Origin: Congeria kusceri | Taxonomy: Eukaryota > Mollusca > Bivalvia > Myida > Dreissenidae | Length of the DNA: 64,000 nucleotides | Direction of reading: 5' to 3' | Assembly (NCBI GenBank): GCA_027627225.1 | Contig: CM051030.1 | Coordinates: forward strand, 2,807,501-2,871,500 | Shown: piece after piece, positions 2,590 through 63,574 of the stretch | How positions within the stretch are numbered: the first letter of the stretch is position 1 | Layout: each line of letters starts with the position of its first letter | The notes under the pieces: generated by a model | Database searches by the model: none | Seen by the model: the letters and a program-made list of their open reading frames with translations, nothing else | Told to the model about the DNA's origin: nothing | Translations under genes and position numbers: made by a program

Positions 2590-2690
2590 GTTGTGCCGAT
2601 GTCAATACAACGGATACCACCGTTTTGGTGAACAATACTGGCGAATGTTTGATGACATGCAGAATTATCTTTGGAATTCAGAAATCAAAC
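2590..2690 (+). CDS. R1 exon: WSC-like domain, first half
   Basis: The exon starts after TCTTTACAG in phase 1 and ends in phase 0 at a GTAAAT donor. It codes for about 33 residues beginning Gly-Cys, with GECLMTC in the middle and FGIQ near the end. Spacing Cys-x(n)-Cys-x3-Cys then an FGxQ-like end is that of the first half of WSC (carbohydrate-binding cysteine-rich) domains. The R2 exon at 15353-15456 has the same layout. Confidence 0.65.
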
Positions 2691-4208
2691 GTAAATAACT
2701 TCAAGTGTACCTGTGCTTGTAACTACATTTTGTCTTAATGACGTATGGCGCCTTCTATTATTAATGCGCAAGAATGAAGTGCAGACACTATTTGTAGCAA
2801 ATTCAAATTCTAATTTCAAAATAAAAGCTGTCAGAGGGCATCGCGCTCGACTATGCGAAGTATTTCATTAGTACATATTTTGGAAAGTGAAAGGGACATT
2901 AATTTGTTGAAATACAAATCTGAGTTATGGCAATTATTTCACCAATTTATTTTAAGTTGCAAGTGAATACCTTATGTAGTTTAGAAATTATAAGACTTTG
3001 GAAAAAACTTTAACCAGAAAATCTATTTGAAAAGTAGGCATACCTCTGTCAAAATGCAAAACAGAGTAATGGGGAGTGTTGCATCTCATGCTGGAGTTGA
3101 TTACAAAGATGTATTCCAAAATTCAAGTGAATACCTTATATAGTTTAGCAATTATAAGATGTCTGACCAAAAACTAAAAACTATGTAAAAGGGGGAACAA
3201 CTTGTCAAAATACAAAACAGAGTTATGTGGATTGTAGTACATGATGCTGTAGTTGATGACAAGGGTATCTTCCAAGTTTCAAGTGAATACATTTTGAAGT
3301 TATAAGACGTTTGAATGAAAACTTAAATCAGAAACTATATGTAGAAAGGGGCATAACTATACTAAAATACAAAACAGAGTTATGGGGAATGTTGCACCTG
3401 AGGCTGGAGTTGATGACAAAGGTATAGTCCAAGTTTCAAGTGAATAATTTATGAAGTTTTAAAGTTACAAGACATTTTTGAACAAACTTTTTACAATAAA
3501 ATCTATGTAAAAATACAAAATTGTATGGGGAATTCAGCACTGGATGTTGGAGTTGATGACAAAGGTATTTTCCAAGTTTCAAGTGAATAACTTAAGTAGT
3601 GTTGAAGGTACAAGACTTTTGAATGTAAACTTTAGCCAAGACCAGACGCGGACGCCGACGGCTGGGCGACGAGAAAAGCTCACCTATTCTTCGAATGGTC
3701 GAGTTCATAAATCTTTGTATGTATCAACGTATTTGTACAATACTATAACTAATAAATACTGCAAACGTCTAAAAACTGTAAAGACATAAAGGTCGTAGTT
3801 TGGACTGGCTGCATAAAATGATTTCGCACATGCACATGTATAAGTTAGTTAGATGTGTAATTGGCAAATCGGTCTATACAACCTCATATAGACTAAGCAG
3901 AAAACAAGCTGGATTCCTTTTAGATTTAATGTATCCCTCTTACCTAAATAAATTCATATACTTACCATGGCTTTAACAAAATATTTCAGTAAAACGCACA
4001 TGCTTGCTTTGTAGGCAGGTATTCGGTGCTGGTGTTTCAATCCAAGCGGACCGTGGTCCCTAAACAAGTGTACAGACAAATGTGAATCTGAACAGTTTTT
4101 GTGCGGAAAGGAATATAGCAATTTCTTTTCAATATATAAGTTGGTTGTATATTTATCATTCGGTTTATTAATAACGTCGTCGTCGCGTTGCCGTTATTAT
4201 TATTATTA

Positions 4209-4239
<31 letters not shown>

Positions 4240-7200
4240 TATTATTACTATTATTATTATTATTATTATTATGTTTATTGTAGGTATGAGAACAGTGACA
4301 TAGGCATCGCACAATGATGGTTTTTGCCTAATTTTTATGCCGGAAAATGTATTTGCATGGAACAGATGTAACAACAACGTCTCATATAGAGTTTTGTGCA
4401 GCATTTTTGAAAGTACGTAGTCATCACAACGAAACGGTAAAATTGAAACATGCATATATATACGCAACTAAACACACACATATTAAAAAATACTCGTTCT
4501 AGGGTCGTACATGTTTTAAACAATGCTATATTATGCATTCAATGTTTCAAGTTGTTAGTATCACAACACAAATCAAAACACAAATGCATTAGATCTTTAT
4601 TTAAGACTGTTTTACGCTTGACCTTTCTCTATGATTAGGTGGTCAAGTGGTAAAATCGTTGGGAAAGTTGTTGTGGTTTGAATCTCGAACAGAATAGTTT
4701 GTTTAAACATGTCAAATATTGTTGATTATCTAACTGTTTTTTTTTTTTCTTTCTTAACTTATTTTTTTGTATGTCTTACGGTTCATTGGCAAAAGGAGTA
4801 ACATTATATAAAGATATTTCATGAGCATTTGGAAACAGTCAAATTGTTTTCCTGTTGTTGAGGGGGCAATATTTGAACTGTTGCCCCGAGGCCGTTAGGC
4901 CGAGGGCAACAGTTGAAAATGTTGCCCCCGATACTGAAGGAAAACAATGTGACTGTTCCCAAATGACTATGAAACATTTGTTTTATTACCTACTTCCAAT
5001 AATAAATAAAAGAAAACATTAAATTGTTTCATTTTCCATGAAAACTTACATAACGATAGATGTGACTCACAACTACAAAATAGAACAATCATAAACCTGG
5101 GTCCTGCTTTTAACAGTCAGTAGCAGTCAGTGTTACCATAAAGTTACATTGCGCAACCTTCTGTGCAGGTTGCTCCCGTAGGAATAATGATGACGGCAAC
5201 ATAACGAAACAAAACCGTTAAACATCACGAAAGGTTGCATGTTGGGAGGAGCTTGTTTCAACAAAGTGGTAAACAGTTAAAGCCAATTTTACGGTATTTC
5301 AGGGTTCTTTGGGGTATTCAATATTCGGCGTTAAATTTGGCGTTAAGAAATGTCCTAAACAAAGATATTGTTTATTGAATTTTATTCAATGTCGTAAATA
5401 AATATTTATGTAACCAGTGTACAGGTATGTGTGTAAAGTGATGTGTGAATGAAGTGCGATAGGTTTTCACTGTCCTAATTGATTATGAGCACATTTTAAT
5501 GTAATCCCCATACCAAGCTATCAATTAGCTAACATGTCCCTTTTTCTAACAAGAAACCCAGCACATTCTTACGTTTGTCACCACAGACTACAGTCACTTA
5601 TACATACAAGTATCCTGCAAAGGAATAGTGATTAAGTCAGAGACTAGCGTGCTAGTTAAATGACCGCTGCTTGGTAAGATTTGTATTTTATTTTTGTCTT
5701 ATTGTATTTTGTTCTCTTATTTAAAGATTTATGCAGTTAACCTATTTGCTTAATGAATTGTATTGTTGAATTTATTGTATAATTAAGTTATGCAATTTAT
5801 AATACATTTAATGCATATTTATTATTGCATGTAAAATATTATATGCATAATTTATATTGTTCAGGTTTATTTTTATATACATTTACTGGAATGAAGATCG
5901 AAAGCAAACAACGAGTTTACCTCATTCAGCACCCCGTTACATTTAACACTCGTGTATTTAAGGATTAGATTGTTTATAACGGTCTGTCTCATTTCTGTAT
6001 AGATCCATACGGCACTTCATACTTGATGATTAGTTTTTCGATACGTTTATTGAAAATTAAACACTAAAATAAGTATATGTGCATTCTATATAATAATGTG
6101 TAATCAATTATAAATACTATATTTTTATTCAGTATATTTATGACAAGCTACTGTGTTAGAATGTTAGTTTAATTTATGATCTATTACTTTGCACAAAAAT
6201 AAAATATCAAAAACAACATTTTAATATGAAAATGTAGTCGAATACAAAAGGAATAATGTCTCCAAAGATCATTCTGAAATTTTCGTGAGATTTTCGTTAA
6301 GTGTACACTCAATGCTAAACTTACTGACAGCAATTGTGTTGCATTGTCGCCGCTGCTCTGCTTTTTCTAAAAGCAGACGGCATTTCTACTAACTGTAACT
6401 GTCAATGAAACTGGTTTATCAGACTTTCCGTCCAATGTGCCTTAACGTTTTAGAAATTTAGAAATTAAACATTTCTTTCAAAAGAACGCATTTGCTTATT
6501 CATCAGTATAATTGTGTTTTAAAAAATCCAATATGTATTTGTATGCTTACGGATCGTGAAAAATACTTATATGTATTATATTATTTGTAATTTGTAAATA
6601 TAAATATATGAAATAACTAAATAAGCAAATACCCATTTTACAAAGAAAACAATTAGCCAATATTTGTAATAAGTATTATTACTTGGCACAAAACTTGTAC
6701 ATTAGGACCTGGGTGTCGCTGCGCAATGCATGACTGAAAACTGAAGATGAAGGTTACAGTAAATTAGTGCGAAGAATGTCAAACAGAAGCATAGTAGTCA
6801 ATATGCCTGGGCATAAACTTTATATATAAAACATTACTCGCAAAAAACGCAATAGGAAATATTTATAACTTGTTATTTTTATTTTCTTTTTGCGAAAGAT
6901 AAAACCAGGATTGCTGAAGTCCAAACATTATTCCAAGATAATTGGGCAGCTGCTAACGCCTTCTGTTTGAATAATACAAAATTTCCGGCATCATTGGACA
7001 GCATATCAAAAGCTTCCTTTACAAATGGAGATGTCCAAAATCACTGGACTAGTGTCATACGAACTACTTCGGTGCTTCGGGCTTCAGTTAATAACGGTGA
7101 GATATACGTGTCATCATATTATTTTAGTTTCATATTTAATACAAGTCCAGTATGTAAATGTAGTCGCGCTTTAATTATGCCATTATTATGTAATAGACTA

Positions 7201-9334
7201 AATAAAAATGATCATGTAATGAATATACATACACATTAACACATAATTAAACGTCGGGAACACACTTATGGTGAATAGTAAAATGATAACTAGGGATCAT
7301 AATGTATCTCAATAATGAGTAATGACATGCTTTCAGGCAGGATAAACGAAACTGATTATGTTGAGTACGCCTACATTGCAACTAACGGAAGCATTGCCTT
7401 CACAGACCGTGGTACACGACGATCCCTTTGTGAAGGTTCTTTCGGTATATATAAAGTGAAACACATTTCTCATTTAATACATACTTGTATTTCTTCTTGT
7501 TTAACACGACATTGCATTTAACTTTAAAACAATGAATTACGTTCGTGTTCGTAGCTGACTAATAATACATGTTTGGTGTCATCAACAGAACCTACAAAAG
7601 AAGCTGGCAAAGAGCCCCGGGAGAAAGGTTAGAATACATTTAAAAAGATGTCTTAATTATTGTATTATGTAAAGAGGCTAGCGTGCTAGTTAAATGACCG
7701 ATCTAGTAATACAACTAGCCATAAACATCTGCAAAGTATTGTTGTACAATTTGTTTAAAATATTTTTCTTCGTGATTGCTATAGTCAAGATATGTTTTTA
7801 AATAAATTTCAAGTTGGTCCATTTTAATTATACTCAATAGGAACTATAATATTTTGAATCGTTCATTTAATATTTATGTAAATAAAAAAGCGAACCATAT
7901 CAAATTAATTTCATGTCCACACATTTTTACATAATACCAGTAAAACATTCCCATGTAATTAAAATAAAATATGTTTCGTCCTTAATCACACAGAGCAAAG
8001 AATTGAAATTATTATATTGTGGTGGTAAAAAGACATAATATTGTCTTGATACTATATACTCTGCGCTGACATAATATTGTTTTCTATTTATAGTGATTTT
8101 TTCCGCGCAAATGTATATTATTTTGTCGCAGGCACTTCTGCTGTAATTATTGGTATCAGTGTGCCGGTCGCGATCATTGTCTCGTTGGTTGTAACCGTTA
8201 TTTTCGTCGTGCTCAAAAGAAGGTAAGTAATATGGATCAAACTATATTTACATGATAATATTTGATTATATTATCCCTATATATTTCTTTTACTAGTTCA
8301 TGTAGTTTATTATTTGTACACAAGTAACATCTACGTACATGTATTAAGCACGCAATATCTATAGAAAATAATAGTATGTAATCATAGTATTAGTTAATCA
8401 TCCTTGCGGAATTATTATTTTGAGCTTAGACATATACATCAACGGTATACTATATACTTGTATGGTCTATATTTAAATATCAAGGTAAAATAGCATGATT
8501 GTTATTGCTTATAAGCCTGGCTATAGCTTTCTTAAATAATAAAAACATGTTACGTGTTTTAAATGTCCAACATATAATATTCACCACATAAGGTTTAACA
8601 TAAACTATGCTGTACAAGAATTCTGCGTTTGTTCTTGTCTCGTTATTAATTCTTAATTACAACTGCCACTAATAATTCATACTTTTAAAAAATGACTTCA
8701 GGGGAACGATACCGTGCTATCCCAACAAAAGTGCTAACAAAGCCTCTGATAACACGCTTGAGGGTCGACCATCCAATGAAGAATCTAACGATGACAATGG
8801 GGGTGTCCAAAACTACTTTGTGTTAGATAAAGGACTCAATAAAAAGTCGATCATTATGGACACCATAATTCCGGGCGTGATCTGAATGTAACGGATGAAG
8901 ATAATTATAATGCAGTAAATTATACGGAGGGGCCATCTGAACGTGTGGTGGGCGACGGTAATTTCGACTACACAAGAAATGGTTTAGCAAATAAGCTGGC
9001 AACTATGAATCCTGATAACATGTATAACAAACTTCGGGTAGACCGCCACGGTGATTATGACCATCTGGGAAAACATGGACAGGACAATACCGTTGCCATA
9101 GCAACAAGTAACGAATACGACACAACATCAGCTGCATTGGCTGTCCACTCCAAAGGCGCTATAGGTGACACAAGTACTTACAATCATGTCAAACATTTTA
9201 GTAATACAGCACATAATAGAAGAAAGGATCTAAGTGACGCCATCAGCAACGACTATGACGTCACAAATCAGACGACATTAAGATTTGCCACGGAAGACAT
9301 GTCAGGTTACGCACACGTTTCTAAAGACTGCTGA
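2590..9334 (+). CDS. R1: WSC/C-type-lectin-like transmembrane receptor with ITAM-like tail (5' end missing, tail frameshifted)
   Basis: Seven exons are supported: two WSC-like (2590-2690, 4015-~4162), a lectin-like exon (6899-7096), the lectin C-terminal exon (7337-7444), a short stalk (7589-7627), a transmembrane exon (8132-8222) and the tail (8702-9334). Exon boundaries carry AG/GT signals and their phases match those of R2. The product would be a type I surface protein with a small ligand-binding ectodomain and a tyrosine-rich signalling tail. No signal peptide exon was found, so it lies left of the window or is lost. The tail has a one-base frame break near 8838-8845 ahead of the ITAM, so the allele is either non-signalling or carries a sequence error. 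A possible AATAAA poly(A) signal is at 9465-9470. The family role (pattern recognition by C-type lectin folds, signalling by ITAMs) is known in animals; its use here is inferred. Confidence 0.7.
2826..3720 (+). repeat. Repeat family A, expanded internal tandem units
   Basis: In the intron inside the WSC domain of R1. It begins with a GCGCTCGACT-like head near 2845, holds four to five diverged units of roughly 180 bp built on 'AAATACAAAACAGAGTTATG' and 'GGAGTTGATGACAAAGG', and ends with GACGCGGACGCCGACGGC and TCGAATGGTCGAG. Confidence 0.75.
4015..4162 (+). CDS. R1 exon: WSC-like domain, second half
   Basis: It starts in phase 0 after TTGCTTTGTAG and reads through Cys-Trp-Cys, then KCTDKC, then LCGKEYS: the CxC ... 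CxxxC ... CG(x)nYS pattern of the second half of a WSC domain. The donor is unclear. A phase-1 GT at 4163 would match the paralogues but is weak (GTTTAT), so the 3' end is provisional. A (TTA)n run follows at once. Confidence 0.6.
4190..4273 (+). repeat. (TTA)n microsatellite
   Basis: An imperfect TTA/TTT run immediately downstream of the second WSC exon of R1. Confidence 0.9.
4636..4700 (+). repeat. Possible tRNA-derived repeat head
   Basis: TGGTCAAGTGG resembles a pol III A box, and GGTTTGAATCTC about 35 bases later resembles a B box. No cloverleaf folds convincingly. It is a candidate degenerate SINE head only. Confidence 0.3.
4816..4976. repeat. Fold-back (hairpin) element 1
   Basis: The left arm (from TTTCATGAGCATTTGG through AACTGTTGCCC) is nearly the reverse complement of the right arm (from GGGCAACAGTTG to CCAAATGACTATGAAA), about 70 bases each, around a GC-rich centre CGAGGCCGTTAGGCCGAG. 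No coding capacity. Likely a MITE-like or fold-back transposable element. Confidence 0.8.
4980..6898. other. Intron of R1, AT-rich, no gene recognised
   Basis: Only AT-rich sequence. The 20-odd base string CTAGCGTGCTAGTTAAATGA at 5645 recurs at 7679, suggesting a dispersed repeat end. No exon with the family's phases was found here. Confidence 0.5.
6899..7096 (+). CDS. R1 exon: C-type-lectin-like domain, N-terminal part
   Basis: Phase 1 at both ends (acceptor GCGAAAG, donor GTGAGA). It codes for about 65 residues with DNWAAANAFC near residues 13-22, a Leu-rich middle and HWTSVIRTT. Trp-x2-Ala-x3-Cys followed by a Trp some 30 residues on is the common C-type lectin fold core (WxxAxxxC ... W). 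The calcium-binding EPN/QPD and WND motifs are absent, so a sugar-binding role is not assured. Confidence 0.6.
7337..7444 (+). CDS. R1 exon: lectin-like domain, C-terminal part
   Basis: Phase 1 at the start (TTTCAG acceptor). It encodes YAYIATNGSIAFTD and then RRSLCEG, the last strand-Cys of a C-type lectin fold. Two donors fit phase 1: GTATAT (end 7444, preferred) and GTTCTT (end 7435). The R2 exon at 21059-21160 is the clear paralogue (YAFIHKTTELYF ... ALCED). Confidence 0.6.
7589..7627 (+). CDS. R1 exon: short stalk
   Basis: A 39-base phase 1-1 exon between ATCAACAG and GTTAGA, coding for a Lys/Glu/Pro-rich peptide (EPTKEAGKEPREKG). It takes the place of the longer Thr-rich stalk exons of R2 to R5. 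Confidence 0.5.
8132..8222 (+). CDS. R1 exon: transmembrane segment
   Basis: 91 bases, phase 1 in and phase 2 out, bounded by GTCGCAG and GTAAGT. It codes for about 22 hydrophobic residues (Ile/Val rich) followed by a Lys-Arg-Arg stop-transfer. The R3, R4 and R5 TM exons are also exactly 91 bases; that of R2 is 85. Confidence 0.85.
8702..9334 (+). CDS. R1 exon: cytoplasmic tail with ITAM-like motif, frameshifted
   Basis: In the frame set by the TM exon the tail reads 60 codons, including NYFVLDK (Tyr codon at 8814), and hits a stop at 8883-8885. A second clean frame, shifted by one base, is open from about 8840 to the stop at 9332-9334 and holds the ITAM YNKLRVDRHGDYDHL (9023-9067), then NEYDTT, TYNHV, NDYDVT and GYAHV. 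The frames would join if one A were missing from the run at 8840-8845. This is either a recent loss-of-function deletion or a consensus error in a homopolymer. Confidence 0.75.
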
Positions 9335-14434: not shown

Positions 14435-14486
14435 ATGTTAGTGCACAAAATGTTTGGAGTTATGGTGTTATTTACTACAATCGAAG
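14435..14486 (+). CDS. R2 exon 1: signal peptide
   Basis: ATG at 14435, 52 bases, phase-1 donor GTAATT. It encodes MLVHKMFGVMVLFTTIEG: short n-region, hydrophobic core, small residues at the end. The first exons of R3 (33119) and R5 (56557) have the same ending pattern (Thr-x-Glu/Gln-Gly) and the same phase. Confidence 0.75.
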
Positions 14487-17400
14487 GTAATTTATATTTG
14501 ATTTCTTTTTCATTTTTTCAAATTGTATGAACAAGACTGATTAACTATATCAATTGCAATATGAACTAGACCAATACCTATAAGCATGTTTTAAACTGTA
14601 ACCAATAAGCAAATTATTAATAAATTAATACATGCAATACAAACTACGACTCTAACAAACACTTTTTTAGAATCTGGTCAATAATGGAAAAGTTTGTTTT
14701 AAAAATGGAAAAATGTTTTATCACCCCAAAAAGAACAATTAAACACAAAAAAATAACTGAAGCTCCAAATGATTATGTCTTAAGTCCTGTGGGGAGTAAC
14801 TAGTTTACCGTGAGAAGCAGTTTTCTGTTTCAGCTAGCTACATTGTCGGAAAGCAAAAAACTGCATGGAAAACTGCGAAATGTGTACTGGCAGAACCTCA
14901 TATAGCCTATGTGAACAACAGCTTTCACGTTAACGAATCGCTTGATAATGTCAAGTCCGAAGTTTGGATGGGCTATGTCTTAACAAAAGTGCCGTTCGAA
15001 TTTATTGGTAATTGCGAACAAGTTTTTTTTTCAAGTATTAACTCAAAAATGAACGTCGTAGATACATGATACGAGTAGATCTCAAAATATTGCATATCAT
15101 CATTTTGAAAACTGCATTATTAATTAAAAATATATATTACTTTTTCTGACATTTTAAGCTGTTCTCGTTTTATGTTTCCTTCTCTAACAAATATTTTAAG
15201 CACCTCTGATGTTGTTGTTGTTGTTGCTGTTATTGTTAGTAGGATTCCATTTAATTGCATCAGATGCATATGAATGGCATCTGCTGAAATGTACAATGTC
15301 GGTTTATGTGCAACAATACTAAACTTCGTGTTCATTGTTATCTGATTCAAAGGTTGCTCAGAAGTTAAGAGCCTTCGATTACACTCGGTGAAAAGTATCG
15401 GTGACTGCTATTTCGTCTGTGGAGGTGGGATCGTCGGGGTTCAGGATCATAATAGTGTAAATATCTATTTTAGTAAAGTAACCTCAATATATTTGATAAT
15501 TTAATCAGTGTAGGATCACAATAGTTTCAAAAATAGCGATAAATCCATTGCAACCATTCAAATAAAAATGGTGCACTCATCAATAAAAATTTTTAATCCG
15601 TGTCACTACTTCGAAATTTAATTGATTTCCCAAATATTTCAAGCCACTTTATGATTGTTATAGCATCACTATTAGACACTAGCTTAAAATAAACACACGT
15701 TGCTTGAGTTTGAGTTGATTGTATAATCTCCAAAACGATGCTTAGACGATTCTTTTCCGACTGCAATAACATAGTTGTACACTCAAGATAATTGTTAGCA
15801 CTACCCACATAATGATCTTGTTTCTTTAGCTGTGTTTCTAAAATTAAGCAAAGCATTTGTGGCTATTAATATGCCTTACTTGTGACATACTGATTAATCG
15901 TTTACCGTTATATTGAGTGCAGTTGGTGCAGCAATAAAAGTATTAAGTATTAAGTAAAGATCTCCCTACCTTTCGACACCCAAAACTCTGTACCAAGCAT
16001 TTTATTTAAATTATGTTAAATGTTCGCATTGTATTGTTTATGTATATAACAGTTTGTATGGTGCCGGTGTGTAAACGAAGTTACACCACAATGCATCGGT
16101 AATACAGACACAGATTGCAACGGAAGTTGTTATGAAATATACCAAAAACTGAACGGTAACAATAGTTTACAACTTTTTTAGAGCATAATATCTCTATATA
16201 ATTAAGTAAATAACAATACACTTCGTAAACATTTAACTCTTTTAATGACGATATTGTAAATCTGTTGTTTCTATATGCGTAGCATTAAGTGTAGCAAAGA
16301 TAATCATAAATACAAAAATAAAAATATATATCATATGTCCTATTGACGTACTTGCTAAAAGATCGAAAGATCATTGCTAGTGGTCAATTGTGATGGTATG
16401 CACAGCAAAACTTGCTTAGGTTCGGGCTTCTGAACATATACTGCTTCAATGCATTTTCGTAAACTATTCTGAAGTGATATGTAAAGATCGTTAATGAATA
16501 TCTAAAATGCATGTTCTTCATTGAGTAAAAAAGAATTCATTGTTTAAATAAGATGTTCAAACAATACAGACAGTGATTCAGACTTGCATCACTCGGATGA
16601 AGATCTTACAGAAGACAGTTCTGATTTTTTGCGATGGGTTTCTCTCAAACAGCTCTAACACTTTACATACAGGTACATACAGAAATTAAATACAATACAA
16701 TTAAGTGCCACCTGCATTGAATGAATTCCATATGTAGGTTTCTAATTTGTTAATAAACGTTGACATTCGTTTTGATTTAGTAATAGCACGCCGATATATG
16801 TATTTCTATTTCTTGTTTTCTTTGCCTTTGTAGCTCACCTGAGCACAACGTGCTCATGGTAAGCTTTTATGATCACCTTTTGTCCGTCGTGCGTCGTCCG
16901 TCGTGTGTAAACATTTCATTCAAACAACATCTCCTCATAAACCCCTGTTCAGATTGTCACCAAACTTTACAGGAATGATTCTTGGATGGCCCTCTTTACA
17001 AATTGTTCGAATCGTTCCGATTTGCTGCATATGTAGGTCACCAGAGCTAAAAATAGATTTAAACAGTGAAAACTTAAAATATCTCCCTCTCTAAAACCGT
17101 AAGACTGAGAGCTTTCATATTTGATATGTGACATCCTCTAATGGTGGTCTACAAAGTATGTTCAAATTATGCCCCTGGGTCAAAACTGGCCTTAACCCCG
17201 GGGGTCACATGGTTTATATAGACTTAAATAGCAAAACGACTTTACAAATCTTCTCCTCTGATACCGCAAGGCCCAGAGGTTTAATATTTGGTATGGAAAA
17301 TCGTATAGTGGTCCTCTACAAAGATTGTTCAAATTATGCCCCTGGGGTAGAAAGTGGCCATGCCCCAGGGGGTCACATGGTCTATATAGACATATATAAA

Positions 17401-27845: not shown

Positions 27846-27849
27846 TTTC

Positions 27850-28416: not shown

Positions 28417-28420
28417 TACC

Positions 28421-44907: not shown

Positions 44908-45025
44908 ATGGAATGCGTATGCATTGACCAACTGAATGACAATCGAATCAACAATGGATGCAAACCATGCGATGACATTGTTTGTGGCAACGAAAATAAA
45001 ACCGCTTTGTATAGCGTCGTGCACG
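44908..45025 (+). CDS. R4 exon: WSC-like domain, second half
   Basis: Phase 0 in (ATGTTACAG), phase 1 out (GTAATT), 39 full codons. It has MECVCIDQ, GCKPCDDIVCGNENK and ALYSVVHG: CxC, CxxC and CG ... LYSV, the clearest WSC-like ending in the window. Confidence 0.65.
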
Positions 45026-49400: not shown

Positions 49401-52400
49401 ATACATTCATTTGGAATGTGCATAACATATCCAACTTTAACCCATCATCATGCGTACATTGACGAAATAAATTCCCATGGAATAAACTTTGCTTATTTTA
49501 TAATGAGGTCATATTGTTGATTTTTGTGACGTCATTTTATGTTTTTCGCAATATTTAGTGTGTTTTCTTTGGTGTATTTTCAAAATAAAGACAGAAAATT
49601 ATGGGATTAATAGGTAAGTATTGAATAAAGATAAGTTTATTTGCTCGGCACGAAAACCTGAAACACGCCAAGGCTCGTGGTTCAGATTTTTTCTAAGCCT
49701 TTCCAAATAAACTTATCTTTACTCAACACTAACCTACTGTAATAGATATATTATCAGTATCTTCGATATTTCAAATAACGTTCGTGACAAAGAGCAGCGA
49801 TGAAGCTTGTTTTTATTTTAAAGATGCGCGCTGTAACGGTTTGTAACTATAATGAATATTATGGACAACATAAAAAAGAATATCGTTTATTCAGTCTAGT
49901 GAAATAATTCCGAAAATATGTTTATCACATGATATACCTTGTTTCCCGTGTAATACAGCCATTACGAATATTTTTATCTTACACATGTGTAACATAACAT
50001 TCTGAGCATTTTCATTGGCTACATATTCTTTGACTGACCAATCGCATGACGTTATGTTGGTGAAATTACGTCGTCAACATGAAATGACGTCACGTCAGTA
50101 CACAACTTTTAGGATTTATCAACATCTTTTGGTGTTGTTTTTTTCATTTAAAAGCATGTGATCTGACACTCGTTGTCATTTCATACCATATTTTATTAAA
50201 CTCGTCCAAGAAATTCGTTAGTAAGCTCACCAAACTAACGAAATTCCTGAAGACGTTTAATAAAATAAGATATAAAATGACAACTCGTGTCAGATTATAT
50301 ATGTATTCTATTTTGTCTTAAATCTAAATTAAATTATTCACACTACCTTCTGATAAATAATTTAATTTTATAAACATAAATTAAAAAGATTATCTAACAA
50401 ACACATGTACGATTACCACAAATTGATCAAACATTTTAATAAATGTATATATACATGTATTATGCCTCACTGCGTTTCCTCATTGTAAAATCCCCTATAC
50501 CCATCACTGCATAATTTTAATATGCCATAACGTTGAAAGTAATATACCCCGAACGGGCTATAATTTTTAATATACCCCGCGCGTAGGCCTTAAAATAGAA
50601 ACACGGGTTTTCCAAGAAATCCGTATAAGCTAATAATCGGTAGGCGCTTATTTAAACGTGTTAAAAAATCAATGTCGATGAGCGCCTGATTTTCCAACAA
50701 TAAATCGTTTATTACTATGAAGAGCTAGTTTGTTCTTTGAATAACACTACTTTTGTTCGGTATAATAAAATAAATATCATAGGCAGTTGAGGGGTAAAGT
50801 AAATATTGCCCCCTCGAAGAGTAATGTCAACCTCGGCTTGCTCAACCTCAGCTTTCGGCCTCGGTTGACATCACTTTTCTCGGGGTTCAATATCTTATAT
50901 ACCCCTTAACTGCCTATGATATTTATATAGTATCATAAAGATAAGCACGTTTGATCAACAAGCATAATAAGCTTGACATAAAATGCTTATTTCAATATAT
51001 AATTTTTTTTGATATCACAACTATGTCATTACAGTGTTTCACCATATTCGCAATGCCGCTAATATTCTTTATTAAATCTAGTCACAATCACAACGTCTGC
51101 AACTGCCTCGCCAAACACAAGTCCTGAATCACAGAGCACTTTAACAACTGACACTACGTCAACAAGCGTTCTTACTGACGCTGCATTCGAAGATTCTTCA
51201 CGAGGTGGGAATAAAAAAAGTTAAGTTATTACTATATATTTGAGGATTCAATCATGCTTAAAGCGTATGTTTTTAATTAGACCGTACATCTATGTGCTAT
51301 CGTATTCTATGTTTTTAGTTCGACAGTTTTGATCAATCCCAAACACTGAGAAGGCGTTTCCTTTTAAACACGTGTACTTAATTACTTCTTAAATGAAAGT
51401 TCTGTTTAACAAATGATAGTATATAATGTATTTTTTCAAGGCTCTTCGTTTGCGGTAACAGCAGTGGGAGTCTTTGTGGCAGTTGCACTTCTGGTTGCTG
51501 TTGGTGTGATCGTTCTTGTACTCAGAAGCAGGTAAGCTAATAAAGTCGTTCGACAAATTGTCCAAGCACAATCGTATTGTTATTTTCACATGTATATGTG
51601 TCGTTCTCTTTTAATACTAAGCTTTCAATCTCTTTAAAGCAAGAACTACAGCATGCTGATATATTCATTATTGGGTGAAGAAATTAGTGTTTGTACACTG
51701 TGTTATTTTAGTTTGTATATAACATTGTTCTCTTCAAGGTGAAGTTAATTCACCATAATTATGTTTTATAGAGGAAAACTTTGCTTCGCATCCACGAAGG
51801 GTTCAAGGTTTGAAAACACAGACGACAGTCATCACATATCCTTGGCGAGGGTGGAGTCGAAACCGAATGCCTATTACCAAACACCGGGGGCTCCTGTGTT
51901 CAATCACACTTACAGTGGACTGCAGAACACAGTCGGTTGTTCCAATGCCACTGACGAATATTATGCCGTTGTAGACAACGATATTTCCACTACTGATTCC
52001 AAACAAAACGAATTTTACCAAACACCCTGTGTCAACCCATACCTACTCTGGTCTGCAGAAGGATAACGGTGGTTCTAAGGTTTATGACGCCACAGCTGCC
52101 CAAGGTATTTCCATTCGATATAATAATATAACTGTTGGAAACCTTGACACGGCAAATATGTTCTTCATACTAGGGAAAGAAGGCTTTAAGCAAGCAAACG
52201 CTGCCAAATCTCCTTCCGCAGACGTTCACGACTACTTTGTTTTGGAGAAACAGCAAAACGGTAAAGAGAATGGAGATGTTCCCTTCAACGAAGGCCATCC
52301 ATATTTTGTTCTGGAAAAACAAAATGGTGTCCAACCGGTTCACAAAAGTCCCTCAAATGACGCCAATCCTTACTTCATATTAGAGAAACAGGCAGCTGAT

Positions 52401-52700
52401 TTGAATACCTCAACACCATCAAATGCACAGTATGTGGTTGAGGCGGAGAGTGACGATGGCGATATGTATCAAGAGATAGACTCGACTGACAAATACTCGG
52501 GCATCGATGATTCACGGAATGATGACAACAACGATTACGATTACACTAACAAGGCATTTAGAGATTCGAAGGTTGAAGTCGCAGACAACATATACAACAA
52601 ACTAAACTCTGAGGGCGATGAATATGATCACGTGCGCGTCGGAAACGGCAGCGTAAGAGCGGCGGAAAACGAGTATGACGTAACGTCTACCGTTGTTTAG
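44908..52700 (+). CDS. R4: WSC/lectin receptor, tail truncated by 8-bp deletion
   Basis: Exons: WSC second half 44908-45025, lectin-like 46488-46625 and 48643-48819, lectin C-terminal 49089-49208, stalk 51082-51204, TM 51441-51531, tail 51772-52066 (premature stop), with the lost frame continuing to 52700. The phases agree through all seven (1062 bases, divisible by three). The 5' exons (signal peptide, first lectin part, WSC first half) were not found. Compared with R3, eight bases are missing at about 52028, so translation stops after 98 tail residues, before all YFVL modules and the ITAM. It could still make a signalling-poor or decoy receptor, or be a young pseudogene. Confidence 0.7.
45142..45237 (+). 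repeat. (GGT)n microsatellite
   Basis: About 32 GGT/AGT triplets. Long poly-Val, poly-Thr or poly-His frames across it are artefacts. Confidence 0.97.
45528..45592 (-). repeat. tRNA-like sequence (degenerate)
   Basis: On the - strand, GTCGGAATGGCTAAGTGGTT resembles the D-arm region and A box of a tRNA, with a T run after it. No B box or cloverleaf was found. Confidence 0.35.
46300..46450 (+). repeat. Compound (GCC)n (CCA)n (ATT)n microsatellite
   Basis: Trinucleotide runs grading from GCC through CCA/CAC to ATT, 37 bases before a lectin-like exon of R4. Confidence 0.95.
46488..46625 (+). CDS. R4 exon: Cys/Trp-rich lectin-like segment
   Basis: Phase 1-1 (CATTTTAG to GTAACC), 45 full codons. 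EWIRDTNVTDNLC, ISAWAKC and HVWCRKTG. It resembles the lectin-like exons of R1 and R2 in having a W-x-x-C and a later Val-Trp; the fold is tentative. Confidence 0.55.
46925..47670 (+). repeat. Repeat family B tandem units (GACCTTGACC)
   Basis: Five to six ~125-bp units with GTAACAGTGACCTTGACCTT, CATATGCAATCCCAAGC and GTATCTATATATGAAG, in an R4 intron. Same units as inside 41103-41955. Confidence 0.85.
47671..48642. other. R4 intron, nothing recognised
   Basis: AT-rich, with no motif or repeat identified by eye. Confidence 0.4.
48643..48819 (+). CDS. R4 exon: C-type-lectin-like N-terminal part
   Basis: Phase 1 in (AAATTACAG). SRWSDANDYCAD matches the WxxAxxxC core; FTEKAFTNIRREWTL gives the second Trp. 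Two N-glycosylation sequons (NSS, NGT). The in-phase donor would be GTTCGT at 48820, which is weak; without it the frame stops at 48840. Confidence 0.6.
49089..49208 (+). CDS. R4 exon: lectin-like C-terminal part
   Basis: Phase 1-1 (TTTAATAG to GTAAGT). MCAYIKNGSSEIMF then KPFLCVG: Cys-x-Tyr strand and the PFLC ending common in invertebrate C-type lectin domains. Confidence 0.7.
49604..49744. repeat. Fold-back element 2
   Basis: The left arm (GATTAATAGG ... GAATAAAGATAAGTTTATTTG) pairs with the right arm (CAAATAAACTTATCTTTACTC ... CTACTGTAATA) around a GC-richer centre with ACGCCAAGGCTCGTGG. Confidence 0.8.
50157..50300. repeat. Fold-back element 3
   Basis: The left arm (TGATCTGACACTCGTTGTCA ... 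TTTTATTAAACTCGTC ... GAAATTCGTTAG) pairs with the right arm (CTAACGAAATTCCTG ... TTTAATAAAATAAG ... TGACAACTCGTGTCAGAT). The loop is short. Confidence 0.85.
50768..50932. repeat. Fold-back element 4
   Basis: AAATATCATAGGCAGTTGAGG at the left pairs with CCCCTTAACTGCCTATGATA at the right. The centre is rich in CCTCGGCTTG and CGGCCTCGGTTG. Confidence 0.85.
51082..51204 (+). CDS. R4 exon: Thr/Ser-rich stalk
   Basis: Phase 1-1 (AAATCTAG to GTGGGA), 40 full codons, TTSATASPNTSPESQS and TDTTSTSVLTDAAFED. It has the same acceptor context and ending as the R3 stalks but is less than half as long. Confidence 0.75.
51441..51531 (+). CDS. R4 exon: transmembrane segment
   Basis: 91 bases, phase 1 in and 2 out (TTTTCAAG to GTAAGC). 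The helix VTAVGVFVAVALLVAVGVIV is followed by Leu-Val-Leu-Arg-Ser-Arg. Confidence 0.85.
51772..52066 (+). CDS. R4 exon: truncated cytoplasmic tail
   Basis: Starts after GTTTTATAG. It matches the R3 tail through AYYQTPGAPVFNHTYSGLQ, EYYAVVDND and EFYQTP, then leaves frame at the 8-bp deletion and ends at TAA 52064-52066. About 98 residues remain, with one YSGL and one YYAVV motif. Confidence 0.8.
52029..52700 (+). pseudogene. R4 tail remainder, out of frame
   Basis: An uninterrupted 223-codon frame homologous to the R3 tail: THTYSGLQ, KVYDATA, MFFILGK (Tyr to Phe), DYFVLEK, PYFVLEK, PYFILEK, MYQEIDSTDKYSGI, NDYDYT, YNKLNSEGDEYDHV (52593-52634), NEYDVT. No stop or second indel, so the upstream lesion is young, is bypassed by an unseen splice form, or is an assembly error. 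Confidence 0.8.
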
Positions 52701-56556: not shown

Positions 56557-56617
56557 ATGGCAGCTCGAAGAATGTTGGTGTTTGGATTATGTTGCAATGT
56601 ATGGTTAACCATTCAAG
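56557..56617 (+). CDS. R5 exon: signal peptide
   Basis: ATG at 56557, 61 bases, phase-1 donor GTAAGT, encoding MAARRMLVFG then LCCNVWLTIQG: basic n-region and hydrophobic core. It matches the R2 and R3 first exons in phase and ending. Confidence 0.65.
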
Positions 56618-57119: not shown

Positions 57120-57420
57120 TCCTTTATATGACATTCAATATATCAGCGCGGTCACACTGCGCAATCGTGCATCGCAGTAAAATATCGTGCCTCTCTTCGT
57201 GTATCGCGCAATCTCGTGCCTCGTGTTCAAAGATCGAGACACGAGATGCGATGCGAGACACGAAGCGATACACGATATTCAGGCGAGACACGAAGCGAGG
57301 CACGATATTATATCGTTCAAATATCGCCCGAATCTCGAGTCCGGCGACACACGAAGCGAGACAGGATATTGTATCATTCAAATAACGCCCGAATATCGAG
57401 TCTCGCGGTTTGAAAGCAAG
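57120..57420. repeat. GC-rich region of short inverted and direct words
   Basis: GAGACACGAAGCGA, ATATCGTGCCTC and their complements recur in both orientations, giving long open frames on both strands. The codon pattern is that of a repeat, not of a protein. Confidence 0.6.
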
Positions 57421-57469
57421 GAAGCAAAGCAGGAAAACACTCTTTTCCCTAACGAACGAATGCGGGTCA

Positions 57470-57800
57470 GGACGGCTCGTTGACAGCCCAGACCAAAACG
57501 GCCCAGTCCATGAAGGTCCACTGTCTGTCTGTCTGTCTGTCTGTCTGTGTCTGTCTGTCTGTCTGTCTGTCTGCCCGTCAGTCCGCCCATTCGCCTGGAG
57601 GATACTGCTGCTTTGTGGCTATTTCTACTCGAATTGATAACTGGCTCTGTTTGAACTATAATGGCTTTAATTTGTGCTTATTGTTCATTTTCATAAAGTC
57701 TGTTGCTGTAGAAGTAACGGCCTGTCTCTGTCAGACTGTCTCTTTGTCTGTCTGTTCGTCCATCCGCCCATCCGTCTTGAGGAAACTGCGGCTGCAATTA
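57470..57800 (+). repeat. (TGTC)n microsatellite and ~190-bp unit repeated twice
   Basis: TGTC runs at about 57521-57575 and 57722-57760, each followed by a similar block (GTCCGCCCATTCGCCTGGAG / GTCCATCCGCCCATCCGTCT, then GGAxACTGCxGCT). Confidence 0.8.
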
Positions 57801-57975
57801 CTTCTGTGGCGTGTTTTAAATAGTTATGTACTAAAGACCTTCTTCAAATTAACTTTCACACACTGAAAGTAGGTCAACACGACGAGGGGTTGCATCATGC
57901 ACTAAAGAATCTAGGTGCATTGCCCTATTGTCAAATTAGCAACGCACTTTGGTTTCAACTCAGCTTCGGCGTTAC

Positions 57976-58072
57976 TTATCATCATCATCATCATAATCAA
58001 CATCATCATCATCATCAACAACATCATCAACAACAACAATAACAATAACAACAACAACATCATCATCATATT
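57976..58072 (+). repeat. (CAT/CAA)n trinucleotide repeat
   Basis: Imperfect ATC/ATA/ACA triplet run before the Penelope-like element. Confidence 0.9.
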
Positions 58073-58230
58073 TTTACAAAATGTAAAAATGTACATTTCA
58101 CATGTATTTACATTTTGCATGTATGGTGTATCTTTTGTGAATCCTATATATTGTAATAAGTACGCCAAATTATGTTTCATGTTTTTTGACGTCATGACGT
58201 CATTATAACGTATTTGTCATAACATGTTAC

Positions 58231-58255
58231 CTGAAGAAGGCTTTTCAACCGAAAC
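58231..58255 (+). ncRNA. Hammerhead-ribozyme-like core (candidate)
   Basis: CTGAAGA, a possible short stem II (AGGCTTTTCAACC, pairing GG/CC and TT/AA), then GAAAC. This fits the hammerhead core CUGANGA ... GAAA. Penelope-like elements are known to carry hammerhead motifs in their terminal repeats. Stems I and III and the cleavage triplet could not be fixed by eye. Confidence 0.4.
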
Positions 58256-59690
58256 GTTGTGATTAAATAAATTAGCTATGTTTGAAGTTTGACTTCTTCA
58301 TAAAATATATATTGTACATAGCAATAAGAAGTCAGAAGTATCTACAGATCCTTCAACATGGGCACGAAAGAGGCAATACGCAGAGACATTAAAAAAATGG
58401 CAGATTTTCAGATGCGAAAATCCACTCACATGAGGTTTCTGGAGAACTGCATATCTGAAAGTGTTGTTCCTACAGGACTGAAACTTAAACTGCAAGTACA
58501 AGTTGGCAATAGTAATGAAGAATTGCAAGCTGCTGTGGATAGAATCCTAGAGAAAACTTCCATGGAAATACCAAGACTGATAGCAGAGGACCATTACAGA
58601 CAACTTCATAAATCAAAAGTGAAAATGGTGGATCTTGAAGGTAAACTCTCTGCTATTCTCACTGATAAGGGCGAGATGAACATTATATCACATGAGATAT
58701 TTCTCCATACATAAAATATGAAGAATTCAATAGTGGACCGACAAAATAAGAAGCTAAGAAAACTAATACAAGCTCGTGACAACCAACCATCAGCTAAAGA
58801 AAATGATGTTATCAAAGTTCAAACAGAGACAACTGGTAAACATATTATATCTAATAACAATAGAACGATCAGATCGCAAAACGTGATACCAGTCAACAGA
58901 AGGAATCCACTAAAGATCAGTCAAAAAACGAAAAATCCCCCGGCGGCAACAAGATGAGTTACAGCGAGGCCATCAAAATGGGGGTTCCGAAACAAAAGAT
59001 CAACCAACAAAAGCAAAACCAGAACAACAAACAAACTGTAGTGAAAACAGGAGTTTGTCAAGAGAAATCCCAGAAGAAGAAAAGTGTCACACACCAAAAA
59101 CCTCACCAAGCAGCTGTTTCCACGATACAACAGTACAGCAAATGGAGAACCGTCAACAAAAAGAAAAAGACAACCCACCAGAATCTACAAGACACTATTC
59201 ATCAACTGATAGAACAACTCCAAGAAATAAAAGAAATAGAAGATTTGTCCGCATAATCAACAACAGAGAATGGAAGCGGCAAAAGAAAATAAAAAAGGAA
59301 ATTGAGAGGGGTAAGAAAACAGTTTTGAATCTATCCGATAGACATTTGACTGACACTGAATATCGGTTGTTAGGTAAAGGATTTAAATTTTGCATAAAAC
59401 CAAAACCACACAGTGAATGCTATTGTGACAAGACATTTTTACATTTGCTAGGAAATTAAGATTGAACGAATAATTTTCCGAAAGAAAACGTCTGTGTGAA
59501 GATAATACTGATGATGACACCACGGATTATAAAGTCCATACATCCTACAAAAAATCTGCTTCTACTTTTATCCCACCAGCTGGACGTGATCCGACCCTAG
59601 ATTTGTACATTGAGGCGATAACTAAAATCGCCTCAATCTGAAAACAAGAAGTATAAATACCAGTCTAATTTATCTCAAGAAGAACAACAA

Positions 59691-60533
59691 GTGCTTAAAT
59701 CCCTTCGCGAAGACCAAAGAATTGTGATAAAACAAGCTGATAAAAGTGCTACCATAGTGATAATGAATCATAAAGACTGTTGTGATGAAGTGTTCAGACA
59801 GTTAAACAATAAACAATACTACCAAAAATTAGATAGTAACCCACAAGAACAGTTTCTAAAGGAGGTAACAAATAAAATACAGGACATGAACGGTATCAGC
59901 GAAAAAGTTAAGGAGGATCTCATTCCTGCCAATGAAGTCAGAATGCCAGTGTTTTACATTCTTCCAAAAATTCATCAACAGCAAAATGAAGATCTTCCAC
60001 TTGGCTATCCTGGTCGTCCAATAGTTTCTGGTTGTGGCTCTCTTACAGAAAACATCTCCTCATATCTTGACAGCATTTTCAAGCCGCATATGGAGACTCT
60101 GCCGTCTTATGTCAAAGACACTACACATTTCATCAAGAAACTCAAATCAGTGGGAAGTCTTCCTGACAATGCCATCCTAGTGACGATTGACGTTTCTTCA
60201 TTTTACAGTAATATCCCACATACAGATGGCATTCAAGCGTGTACAGAGTTCTTAAGACAGGATAAAACATTAAATAAAGACAGTATCAAGTCCATAGAAG
60301 AGTTGCTGATTATTGTTCTTACCAAAAATAATTTTCAGTTTGGTGAAGATAATTATGTACAAGTCTTGGGAACTGCAATGGGTACGAAAATGGCACCTAG
60401 TTATGCATCTCTATTCATGGGGAAGTTTGAACAAAATTTCCTATCATCTTATGGACAAACACCTATCCTGTGGCTGCGATGTATTGATGACATTTTTTTC
60501 ATATGGACTCACAGTGAAAATGATCTATATTAA
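59691..60533 (+). pseudogene. Penelope-like reverse transcriptase core, truncated
   Basis: The listed frame holds 280 codons and its open frame extends upstream to about 59635 without a Met. Recognisable RT parts: QADKSATIVIM (start), YILPKIH and GRPIVSGCGSLTENIS, TIDVSSFYSNIPH (motif A, catalytic Asp), GTAMGTKMAPSYASLFMG (motif B) and RCIDDIFFIW (motif C, catalytic Asp pair). The stop comes from the fused repeat. A frameshift near 59630 separates it from upstream coding pieces. Confidence 0.9.
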
Positions 60534-61225
60534 AAACAGAGTTATAGGGAGGTTGGCCCTGACACTGGAGTTGATGACAAAGGCATGTTCCTTTTTTAAA
60601 GTGAATAACTTATGTAGTTCTGAAGTTACAAACGTTTTGAATATAAACTTTAACCAGACAATCTACGTGAAAACGGGGCAAAACTGTGACAAAATACAAA
60701 ACAGAGTTATATGGAATGTTGCCCTGATATTAAAGTTGATGACAAAGGTAGATTCCAATTTTCAAGTGAATAACTTATGTAGTTCTGAAGTTACAAAACT
60801 GTTGAATATAAACATTAACCAGAAAATCTGTGTGAAAAAAGGGCATAACTCTGACAAAATACAAAACAGAGTTATAGGAAATGTTGCCGCTGACACTGGA
60901 GTTGATGACAAAGATATATTGCAAGTTTCAAGTGAATAACTTCTGTAGTTTTGATGTTACAAAACTTTTGAATATAAACTTAAACCAGAAAATTTATGTG
61001 AAAAAGGAGTATAAATTTGTCACAATACAAAAACAGAATTATTGGGAATGTTGCCCTTAATACTGGAGTTGATGACAAAGGTATATTCCAAGTTTCAAGT
61101 GAATAACTTGTGTAGTTTTGAAGTTAAAAGACTTTTGAATAAAAACTTTAACCAAATTCAGGCGCGGACGCCGACGCCAGGGATAGTAGGAAAGCTCACC
61201 TATTCTTCGAATAGTCGAGCTCAAA
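60531..61225 (+). repeat. Repeat family A, four internal units
   Basis: Begins in the middle of a unit (AAAACAGAGTTATAGGGAGG), holds four units of ~150-180 bp and ends GGCGCGGACGCCGACGCC ... TCGAATAGTCGAGCT. It lacks the usual GCGCTCGACT head. Confidence 0.85.
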
Positions 61226-61439
61226 ATGACAAATCTGTACTAGAACTGCTGGACCAAATCAGACGTCTAAACTGTATCTGAGCATACCACACAAATTCCA
61301 CATAAACATGAAGGAGGAACAAAATTGTAAAAATAAAATAAAAGCAAAATAAAATCAATCAAAGTGATAGATCATTAATCTGATATGGTTATTTCATTGT
61401 AGTTATTTAACTTTCCATCAACTATCATTGAATTTTACA

Positions 61440-62340
61440 TAGCAGTTCCAACAAAATAGACATGACACAATTGAAGTCTTCAAAATCCCATAACTCCAAG
61501 AAAAATTATTGAAGCGGAACATCCTGGTAATATGCATACATCTTCTTGGCACTGATGCTTCCCATAATTTTCTTTGAAATCTGGCCAGTAATTTCTGAGA
61601 AATAGCCCGGATAAGAATTGTGCATTATAAAACTAATTATTAAATCTTCAAAGTCTCATAACTCTGAAAAAAATCATTGAAGCGGAACATTCTGGTAATA
61701 TGCACAACTCCGCTTGGTAATGAAGTTTCCATAAAGTTTCATTGAATTCCAGCCAGTAGTTGCTGACAAATAGCTTGGACAAGAATTGCGCACTATATGC
61801 TAATTTCATAATTATTCAAAGTCCCATAACTCCGAGAAAAATCATTGAAAAGGAACATCCTCGTCATATACATACCACCTCTTAGTAATGATGCTTCCCA
61901 TAACGTTTCGCTGAATTCCAACCTGTAGCTGCTGAGAAATAGCTCGGACAAAAAAAGTAAAAAATTGTGCACTATATACAATTTCAGAAATATTCAAAAT
62001 CCCATAATTCTGTGAAAAATTGCAGCGGAACGTCCTAGTAATATGCACACCTCCTCTTGGTAATAAAGCTTTCCAGAAAGTTTCGTTGAATTCTGGCCTG
62101 TAGTTGCTGAGAAGCAGCCCGGCCAAGAAAGTCAAGAATTGTGCACTATATACTAATTTCAGAAATATTCAAATTTTCTATAACTCTGATAAAAATCATA
62201 GAAGCGGAACGTCCTGGTAATTTGCCCATCTCTTGGTTATGAAGCTTCCCATAGAGTTGCGTTGAATTCCTACTAGTAGTTTCTGAGAAATAGCTCGGAC
62301 AGTGGGACGGAAGAACGGACGAACGGACGGAAAAGGCGGC
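61440..62340 (+). repeat. ~175-bp tandem repeat, about five units
   Basis: Unit words: CAAAATCCCATAACTC, AATCATTGAAGCGGAACATCC, CTTGGTAATGAAGCTTCCCAT, TAGTTGCTGAGAAATAGC, GAATTGTGCACTATATAC. It ends in GAACGGACGAACGGACGG. Open frames on the - strand in it are artefacts. Confidence 0.85.
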
Positions 62341-62579
62341 GAAATTTTGGAGGGAGAATAAACATAGTCTGTGATAATTAGTTGTTGTTTTTTTAAGCTG
62401 GCGTTAGCATACTATGAGTACATATTTTTGGGACGATGCTTAAATATATTTCTTAAATATATTCTGAAATGTAACCATAGTTTAACAATGCATCAATATA
62501 TACACTTATATGTGACACCTATTTATCACAGCTTTAATACAACTGCATGATTACTCTAATAATTATTATGGATGTTTTA

Positions 62580-62856: not shown

Positions 62857-63063
62857 AAACAACTACGATAATTATCCATTCAACGACCTCAACACGGAAC
62901 ACAAACAGTGTAACTACTAACCCTATCAGGGAGCAGACAACGCCGTTCTCACACCAAACGGAGTCAGTAACTTCGGCACCGGATATCGATCTCGACACAA
63001 CTCAACATATACCTTCAACTAAATTGTCAACAGCCCTGGTTGTGGATTCAACGCAAGAGAAAG
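62857..63063 (+). CDS. R5 exon: Thr/Ser-rich stalk
   Basis: Phase 1-1 (ATTCACAG to GTTTTT, a poor donor), 68 full codons, ETTTIIIHSTTSTRNTNS and later TESVTSAPDIDLDTTQH. Probable O-glycosylated stem. Confidence 0.6.
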
Positions 63064-63272
63064 GTTTTTTGTCCTAGATTCATTCACTTACATATATTTT
63101 TTCATACAAACACATGTACTTTCGAATTCATGAAATGTCACACAGTAAGGCCGATTGTATTGTTTCAACACCTCGACTAAATAGCTCTTAACACAGATTT
63201 ACTGAAATTACATGCTTAAATATGGCAAAACAAATACACGTAATTCGAAAATGAATTAAATCTCATTTCCAG

Positions 63273-63363
63273 CGTCTTCAATCGGACTACTTGTGGCTGG
63301 AATCGTTGCTGCGGTCTTTCTTTTGATTGTTGCTGTTGTCATCGTAGTCGTACTACGAAGCAT
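63273..63363 (+). CDS. R5 exon: transmembrane segment
   Basis: 91 bases, phase 1 in and 2 out (CATTTCCAG to GTAAGA). IGLLVAGIVAAVFLLIVAVV then Ile-Val-Val-Val-Leu-Arg-Ser. Confidence 0.8.
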
Positions 63364-63391
63364 GTAAGATATTTAATCTTCTTGTGTTTGT

Positions 63392-63574
63392 GTGCGTGTG
63401 TATGAGGACATTGATGAATCAAATGTTGGAATGGACAACGAATATGATGACACCAACAAGGCCTTGCGCGTGGCATTGCCAGATAATATATACTATATAC
63501 TTCATACAGGTGATGACGATTATGACCATGTCCAAATAGGCAAAGGCAGGGTTAGTTCAAAAGACAATGAATAA
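63392..63574 (+). pseudogene. R5 tail stump with ITAM-like motif
   Basis: RVYEDIDES, NEYDDTNKALR and the ITAM-like YYILHTGDDDYDHV (63491-63532) match the last 60 residues of the R3 tail. It directly follows the TM exon with no usable intron, so roughly 250 tail residues and the intron appear deleted. A different downstream tail exon outside the window cannot be excluded. Confidence 0.65.

Follow-up and report, generated by a model that had tools for sequence, protein, structure and literature searches.

Clusters of receptor genes whose products have tails with an immunoreceptor tyrosine-based activation motif (ITAM) are best known from vertebrates. The Dectin-1 cluster of the vertebrate natural killer (NK) gene complex codes for lectin-like receptors, some of them with ITAM-type tails, and Draper/CED-1/MEGF10 are type I invertebrate phagocytic receptors with an ITAM-type tail. 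For oysters, excerpts of two reports describe the transmembrane C-type lectins CgCLec-TM1 and CgCLec-HTM, which have a hemITAM and are reported to act through Syk (PMC13027682, PMC12842671). WSC is listed among the domains of unique bivalve C-type lectin architectures in an excerpt of PMC10140915, and an excerpt of PMC9505182 has only a general remark on ITAMs in lectin receptors. Here we analysed 64,000 nucleotides of the bivalve Congeria kusceri (the window, C7:2807501-2871500, where C7 is contig CM051030.1; the assembly has 1.549 Gb in 1071 contigs). The window probably carries part of a tandemly expanded family of type I membrane receptors with ITAM-type tails, for which we find five loci, R1 to R5.

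Gene models were made from stop-to-stop frames and splice sites, which were read by eye and then joined; signal exons were assigned by hydrophobicity and a donor scan only. As originally predicted, all five loci are on the plus strand and have a transmembrane (TM) exon of 91 bp (85 bp in R2), and long, tyrosine-rich, homologous tail exons follow in R1 to R4; the tail of R5 is a remnant. Common splice phases had been predicted as well and were recovered in four loci: the junction into the TM exon is of phase 1 and that from the TM exon to the tail of phase 2. This holds for R2 and R3, the only loci of the window with in-frame joined models, and for R1 and R4 according to exon-by-exon reading by eye; the joined models of R1, R4 and R5 begin within the gene, and their translations do not stay in frame. 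A single exon order for all five loci was rejected. The predicted order with WSC-like and lectin-like exons applies to R1, R2 and R4, whereas R3 and R5 seem to run from a candidate signal exon to a Thr/Ser-rich stalk, and tblastn with the R1, R2 and R4 exons and pattern scans found no WSC-like or lectin-like exon in them.

Two of the five window genes, R2 and R3, appear to read intact. R2 is complete in one open frame of 424 residues (signal, WSC1, WSC2, A, B, Thr-rich stalk, TM and a tail of 199 residues) with internal junction phases of 1, 0, 1, 1, 1, 1 and 2. A suspected frame conflict between its TM and tail exons was rejected, as the acceptor TTTCAG/A at 22862 gives phase 2. R3 is a complete gene of a second type with signal, Thr/Ser-rich stalk, TM exon and a tail of 307 residues. 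The 5′ end of R5 is of the R3 type, with the signal candidate at 56557 followed by a 5.2-kb stretch and the stalk exon. Inside this stretch a frame at 59622-60530 matches reverse transcriptase (RVT_1, E=7.7e-9), and it looks Penelope-like.

Further members lie on both sides of the window. Upstream are copies of R1, R4 and R5 (R1', R4' and R5'), downstream are R6 (C7 ~2909-2933 kb) and R7 (C7 2937.6-2948.2 kb). Signal exon candidates were found for R2, R3, R5, R6 and R7, the last two with two candidates each. The R7 model (C7 2937623-2948.2 kb) is in frame to the tail stop with or without a 141-bp exon Bx; one alternative Bx donor tried was out of frame. Its tail stop is located earlier than that of R1', because the R7 match holds one TAG and one TAA. 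The R1' model is valid from WSC2 to B only, and the TM match belonging to R1' is at C7 2715154.

The tails carry the strongest common signature. We aligned eight of them, R2, R3, R1' and R7 together with L010, L011, L014 and L023, which are further tails found by a genome search with the R3 tail. All eight have an ITAM-type tyrosine pair, typically D-N-x-Y-N-K-L-x6/7-(D/E)-Y-D-H-(L/V), with the halves 6 or 7 residues apart and the flanking D-N and Y-D present in each case. The first half is YNKL or YNRL in seven tails and YSIL in L023. The second +3 residue is L in R3, L010, L011 and R1', and these four conform to the strict ITAM pattern Yxx[LI]-x6-12-Yxx[LI]; it is V in L014, L023, R2 and R7. 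Within the window R3 has the strict form and R2 the form with V, and in R1 and R4 the motif lies past a frame break.

There are 12 Yxx[LIVMF] sites in the R3 tail compared to a mean of 3.6 in shuffled sequences, and 0/2000 shuffles reached 12. The density is likewise above shuffles in L010, L011, L014 and L023 (0/2000), R1' (p=0.006) and R7 (p=0.0055), and a wide ITAM pattern exceeds shuffles in seven tails (p=0.0015-0.0425). For four diverged tail pairs, two of which have L014 in common, the ratio of nonsynonymous to synonymous substitution rates (dN/dS) is 0.53, 0.51, 0.32 and 0.18 (Nei-Gojobori, no test); these tails, as those in the motif alignment, were picked because they are open. The ratio for R3/L010 is 0.33, and that for R2/R7 is undefined. 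Two small rearrangements were seen in tails. A 99-bp tandem duplication at 23142-23329 doubles the YNKL half in R2, where a cysteine stands in place of the second tyrosine after the first YNKL (SDCDE). At C7 2932747-2932840 (L045, the R6 tail) copies of the motif DNA in opposite orientation lie within 100 bp of each other, pointing to a small inverted duplication.

Searches of the genome showed that the family extends far beyond the window. With the R3 tail as query 22 matches were found, all of them on C7 2.75-3.83 Mb; with the R1 tail there were 47, of which 38 are on C7 0.25-3.15 Mb, five on the unplaced contig C539 and four on C10 (near 12.93 and at 54.63-54.65 Mb). The longest open frame listed among the R1 tail matches has 618 codons and contains the match at C7 1304614-1304940. 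Merging C7 matches with starts within 4 kb gave 45 loci, six of them in the window including a relic at 27.8 kb. Four more loci, partial or full, came from the R2 tail by hand count under the same rule (C7 2678996, 3111723, 3172988 and 3275954). Altogether, approximately 49 tail-match loci, relics and fragments included, are located on C7 0.25-3.83 Mb, in addition to the two C10 regions, and many of the matched tails are open without stops. Divergent members may have been missed by these searches. A DNA pattern for D-N-x-Y-N-K-L had 112 exact matches in the genome, below the reversed control (206), and 33 of the 100 places listed lie within C7 0.25-3.83 Mb (hand count).

A search with exon A of R7 gave 39 matches, which fall into 38 loci on C7 0.28-3.09 Mb, C539, C10, C133 and C261; in the window this search finds only R1 and misses the A exons of R2 and R4, which have diverged. 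A tail on the same strand is found within 6 kb downstream of 19 of the 38 exon A loci and within 6 kb upstream of one. Within 15 kb the counts are 29 downstream and 13 upstream, and none is on the opposite strand, which says little because whole blocks share one direction. The order of exon A followed by the tail is also seen in an inverted C7 block and in the two C10 regions. The count of 19 to one is the informative one and, as far as sequence can tell, speaks against tail exons that belong to unrelated genes. The original prediction of an expanded, fast-changing family with ITAM-type tails is supported by the number of loci, the conserved tyrosine pair, tandem and segmental duplication and the broken copies.

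The predicted receptors would have a signal peptide, followed either by a WSC-like and a two-exon lectin-like module or by a Thr/Ser-rich stalk only. Next would come a single TM helix and then a long tail, which has several Yxx-hydrophobic sites and, distally, one conserved ITAM-type pair. Binding of a ligand to the ectodomain would cluster the receptors, and a Src-type kinase would then phosphorylate the tyrosine pair. A Syk-type kinase with tandem SH2 domains could dock there and elicit an immune response, e.g., phagocytosis or cytokine induction; signalling of the window receptors through Syk is suggested by analogy. With this array the animal may possess a receptor complex of megabase scale that senses microbes or other cells.

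Several results weigh against this reading. The members are predicted receptors, known here from the genome alone, and three of the five window copies (R1, R4 and R5) look broken. For nine of the 38 exon A loci the 15 kb downstream contain no tail. Pfam gave no Lectin_C (PF00059) or WSC (PF01822) match in the exons tried, single or joined, and an AlphaFold prediction of exon A made with two sequences had low confidence (mean pLDDT 55) and was not used. The Pfam ITAM model (PF02189) had no match on the R2 and R3 tails and reached E=0.11 on the R1 tail (13.5 bits, cut-off 22.2). The Yxx[LIVMF] density of R2 (p=0.117) and the wide ITAM pattern in L014 (p=0.067) are not significant compared to shuffles. 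Two of the four low dN/dS ratios rest on saturated dS (1.4 and 2.6), and R3/L011 gives a ratio of 1.60 on 27 changes.

The nature of the ectodomain is where an alternative fares best. The lectin and WSC labels of the original prediction gained no support from curated models: in addition to the exons scanned above, four joined members had no PF01822 match, and of the 149 matches listed in a genome search with PF00059 (150 of 549 candidates scored) none was on C7 below 4 Mb. The modules might instead form a separate cysteine-rich family that merely resembles lectin and WSC folds, which we consider possible but less likely than not. In keeping with this, a profile of the WSC-like module from four joined members had no match in the PDB up to E=10. 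The calcium-site motifs of C-type lectin domains are EPN or QPD plus WND, and the aligned A and B exons show none of them. The inner cysteine pair is absent from R1, R2 and R7, and R2 also lacks the first cysteine of the C-type lectin-like domain (CTLD).

A search of 5.8 billion proteins with the R2 model yielded 2462 candidates, none at E<=0.001. Exon A was also used in profile searches of the PDB. A first A/B profile that included R2 found bitiscetin (E=0.054), which we take to be a C-type lectin-like chain, CLEC2D (0.58), 17 kainate-receptor chains from 0.62 and one CD55 chain. For a second profile R2 was left out and two members with exon A only were added, and the E value of bitiscetin changed from 0.054 to 0.0016. 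This five-member profile had 12 matches, with bitiscetin followed by seven CD55 chains (0.19-0.45), CLEC10A (0.23 and 0.26), ASGR2 (0.54) and VANC21 (1.1). The best match is C-type lectin-like and three more lectin chains are among the 12, which argues against a separate family, while the CD55 and kainate-receptor chains scoring near the lectins fit one. We also compared the exon A profile by hhalign with CTLDs of the same genome (five of eight loci; three with stops were dropped), which gave P=0.028 over 29 columns and a probability of only 1.8%; the WSC-like profile used as a control gave P=0.71. For the other module, the eight-cysteine order C, CxxxC, CxC, CxxxC, CG is kept in R1 and partly in R2, R6 and R7, and in R1 it resembles the cysteine order of WSC domains. 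The evidence that exon A is related to C-type lectin-like domains is only suggestive, and lectin-like is an unproven label for it; exon B has the first A/B profile as its only support.

A second alternative concerns how many of the copies work. The array might be mostly a graveyard of broken duplicates and uncollapsed haplotypes with few working receptors, which we regard as unlikely; the damage in the window speaks for it. The R1 tail has a 10-bp gap compared to R1' and the R4 tail an 8-bp gap compared to R3, which put both ITAM regions out of the TM-derived frame. With gaps of 10 and 8 bp a one-base miscall is an unlikely cause. R4 was compared with R3 instead of an intact R4; the tail frame of R4' is split as well. 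The segment missing in R5 is kept in copies at C7 2789565 and 2883107, each of which has a stop or frame change of its own, and further copies elsewhere in the family also hold stops or frame changes. A signal exon of R1 was not found (the sequence before the window reads N; the N runs adjoining the window have lengths of 2500 and 5000 and may be masked sequence), and the hydrophobicity and donor scan gave no convincing one for R4. A pattern scan for WSC1 in R4 was negative; a synteny break lies at 44024, and the upstream copy of R4 has a WSC1 candidate at C7 2772757.

Duplication also bears on this alternative. From approximately 3 kb on, most of the window has a collinear copy 77-101 kb upstream (C7 2.710-2.791 Mb), with 92.0-98.5% identity in the individual pieces; a collinear partner is lacking there for window segments 41.4-44.0 kb and 57.2-62.3 kb. 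The upstream copy could represent alleles placed in tandem or a segmental duplication, both being compatible with the data. C539 is probably the other haplotype of another part of the array, since its spacing of tail and exon A matches parallels that of C7 1.21-1.27 Mb. Uncollapsed haplotypes are thus likely, and there may be far fewer than 49 distinct genes. Open, stop-free tails at many of the matched places speak against a mere graveyard, as do the dN/dS values below 1 between diverged copies, with the reservation that the compared tails were preselected as open. In the reading as a receptor family, the array would be under birth-and-death evolution, which would account for the many broken copies.

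That the tail tyrosines are endocytic Yxx-hydrophobic sorting signals of uptake or adhesion receptors without Syk signalling is quite improbable: the sites of the R3 tail are spread over its whole length and in four of eight tails V is the last residue of the second half, but the 6-7 spacing and the D-N and Y-D flanks kept in all eight divergent tails exceed what sorting signals need.

Features of the R1 to R5 receptor loci and associated sequences in the window (window positions).
Feature	Position	Strand	Remarks
R1 exon WSC1	2590..2690	+	Gly-Cys start; phase 1 in, phase 0 out
R1 exon WSC2 (CxC...C...C...CG)	4015..4139	+	3′ border uncertain; lacks ~25 bp that hold the splice donor in R1'
R1 possible exon Bx (C..W..C..LC)	4304..4412	+	use doubtful, because the phase-0 acceptor mismatches the phase-1 donor of R1'
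R1 exon A, lectin-like first half (WxxAxxxC...HWT)	6899..7096	+	
R1 exon B, lectin-like second half	7337..7435	+	
R1 TM exon, 91 bp	8132..8222	+	
R1 tail exon	8702..9334	+	frame broken near 8826-8843; ITAM YNKLRVDRHGDYDHL at 9023-9067 past the break
R2 signal-peptide exon	14435..14486	+	hydrophobicity and donor scan
R2 exon WSC1	15353..15456	+	joined model
R2 exon WSC2	16053..16155	+	joined model
R2 exon A, without WxxAxxxC part	20601..20750	+	joined model
R2 exon B	21059..21160	+	joined model
R2 short Thr-rich stalk exon	21792..21869	+	joined model
R2 TM exon, 85 bp	22303..22387	+	joined model
R2 tail exon, intact	22862..23462	+	ITAM-like YNKLTINRHSDYDHV at 23304-23348
Decayed R3-type tail relic, 96-bp repeats	27817..28460	+	
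R3 signal-peptide exon	33119..33182	+	donor AAG/GTAAGT
R3 mucin-like stalk exon	34022..34309	+	second copy ~2.4 kb on (frame 36325-36738)
R3 TM exon, 91 bp	38954..39044	+	joined model
R3 tail exon, intact	39351..40275	+	12 Yxx[LIVMF]; ITAM YNKLNSEGDEYDHL at 40168-40209
R4 exon WSC2	44908..45025	+	no WSC1 found in window copy
R4 exon Bx	46488..46625	+	
R4 exon A	48643..48819	+	
R4 exon B	49089..49208	+	
R4 stalk exon	51082..51204	+	
R4 TM exon, 91 bp	51441..51531	+	
R4 tail exon	51772..52700	+	frame broken near 52028; ITAM-like YNKLNSEGDEYDHV at 52593-52634 past the break
R5 signal-peptide exon candidate	56557..56617	+	
Stretch without partner in upstream copy, with reverse-transcriptase frame	57156..62342	+	interval between R5 signal and stalk
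R5 stalk exon	62857..63063	+	3′ border by eye, weak donor
R5 TM exon, 91 bp	63273..63363	+	
R5 tail remnant	63398..63574	+	~0.9 kb missing at 63401; YYILHTGDDDYDHV at 63491-63532

The decayed R3-type tail lies approximately 5 kb after R2, and a similar pairing is seen at C7 3172988/3178276. The window also contains a 46-bp satellite array with 41 copies (10705-12593), which is longer in the upstream copy, and, between exons WSC2 and A of R2 (17088-20357), an array of diverged repeats of ~165-168 bp with longer multiples. A 423-codon frame on the minus strand at 3-1271, with a zf-RVT match below the cut-off (E=6.7e-5), is probably a retroelement remnant.

A further-reading interpretation, which we regard as rather doubtful, is that one chromosome end forms a megabase immune or allorecognition complex that would correspond in function to the NK complex of vertebrates. 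Its dozens of type I receptors would have full ITAM tails and ectodomains of a new family, with stalk-only members as a second class, and segmental duplication and haplotype differences would have diversified it. Approximately 49 tail-match loci with ectodomains that are invisible to Pfam would let domain-based surveys of receptors in this lineage miss a large complex. Differences in presence and absence such as that of the R5 tail may bear on polymorphic recognition, and the conserved motif offers a direct biochemical question, namely how the doubly phosphorylated pair interacts with the Syk-type kinase of the animal.

Compared to the described systems, the family has a combination of its own. 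Proteins of the Dectin-1 cluster are type II with short N-terminal tails, whereas the window receptors are predicted to be type I with a long C-terminal tail. Draper and MEGF10 have EGF repeats; the exons given to Pfam, which are a part of all possible exons, had no EGF match. According to the excerpts of the two reports, the oyster lectins have a recognised carbohydrate-recognition domain and a half motif, whereas the window family has the full tyrosine pair and further Yxx sites. It also has a WSC-like and a lectin-like module, the latter not recognised by Pfam, and forms a tandem array of megabase size. The window receptors would fall outside the oyster hemITAM class, as Pfam finds no carbohydrate-recognition domain and a tyrosine pair replaces the half motif alone. 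The main text of PMC10140915 has no word beginning with ITAM, and the WSC-like and lectin-like modules of the window differ from the domains named there in having no Pfam match. The original prediction knew of no named family with this domain set; titles and abstract beginnings of the literature searched indeed held no name for it, but its kind is already known from the oyster hemITAM lectins and from bivalve proteins with WSC and lectin domains. The window family is set apart by a long type I tail with the full tyrosine pair, by its class of members with a stalk only, by an ectodomain that goes unrecognised and by the size of the array.

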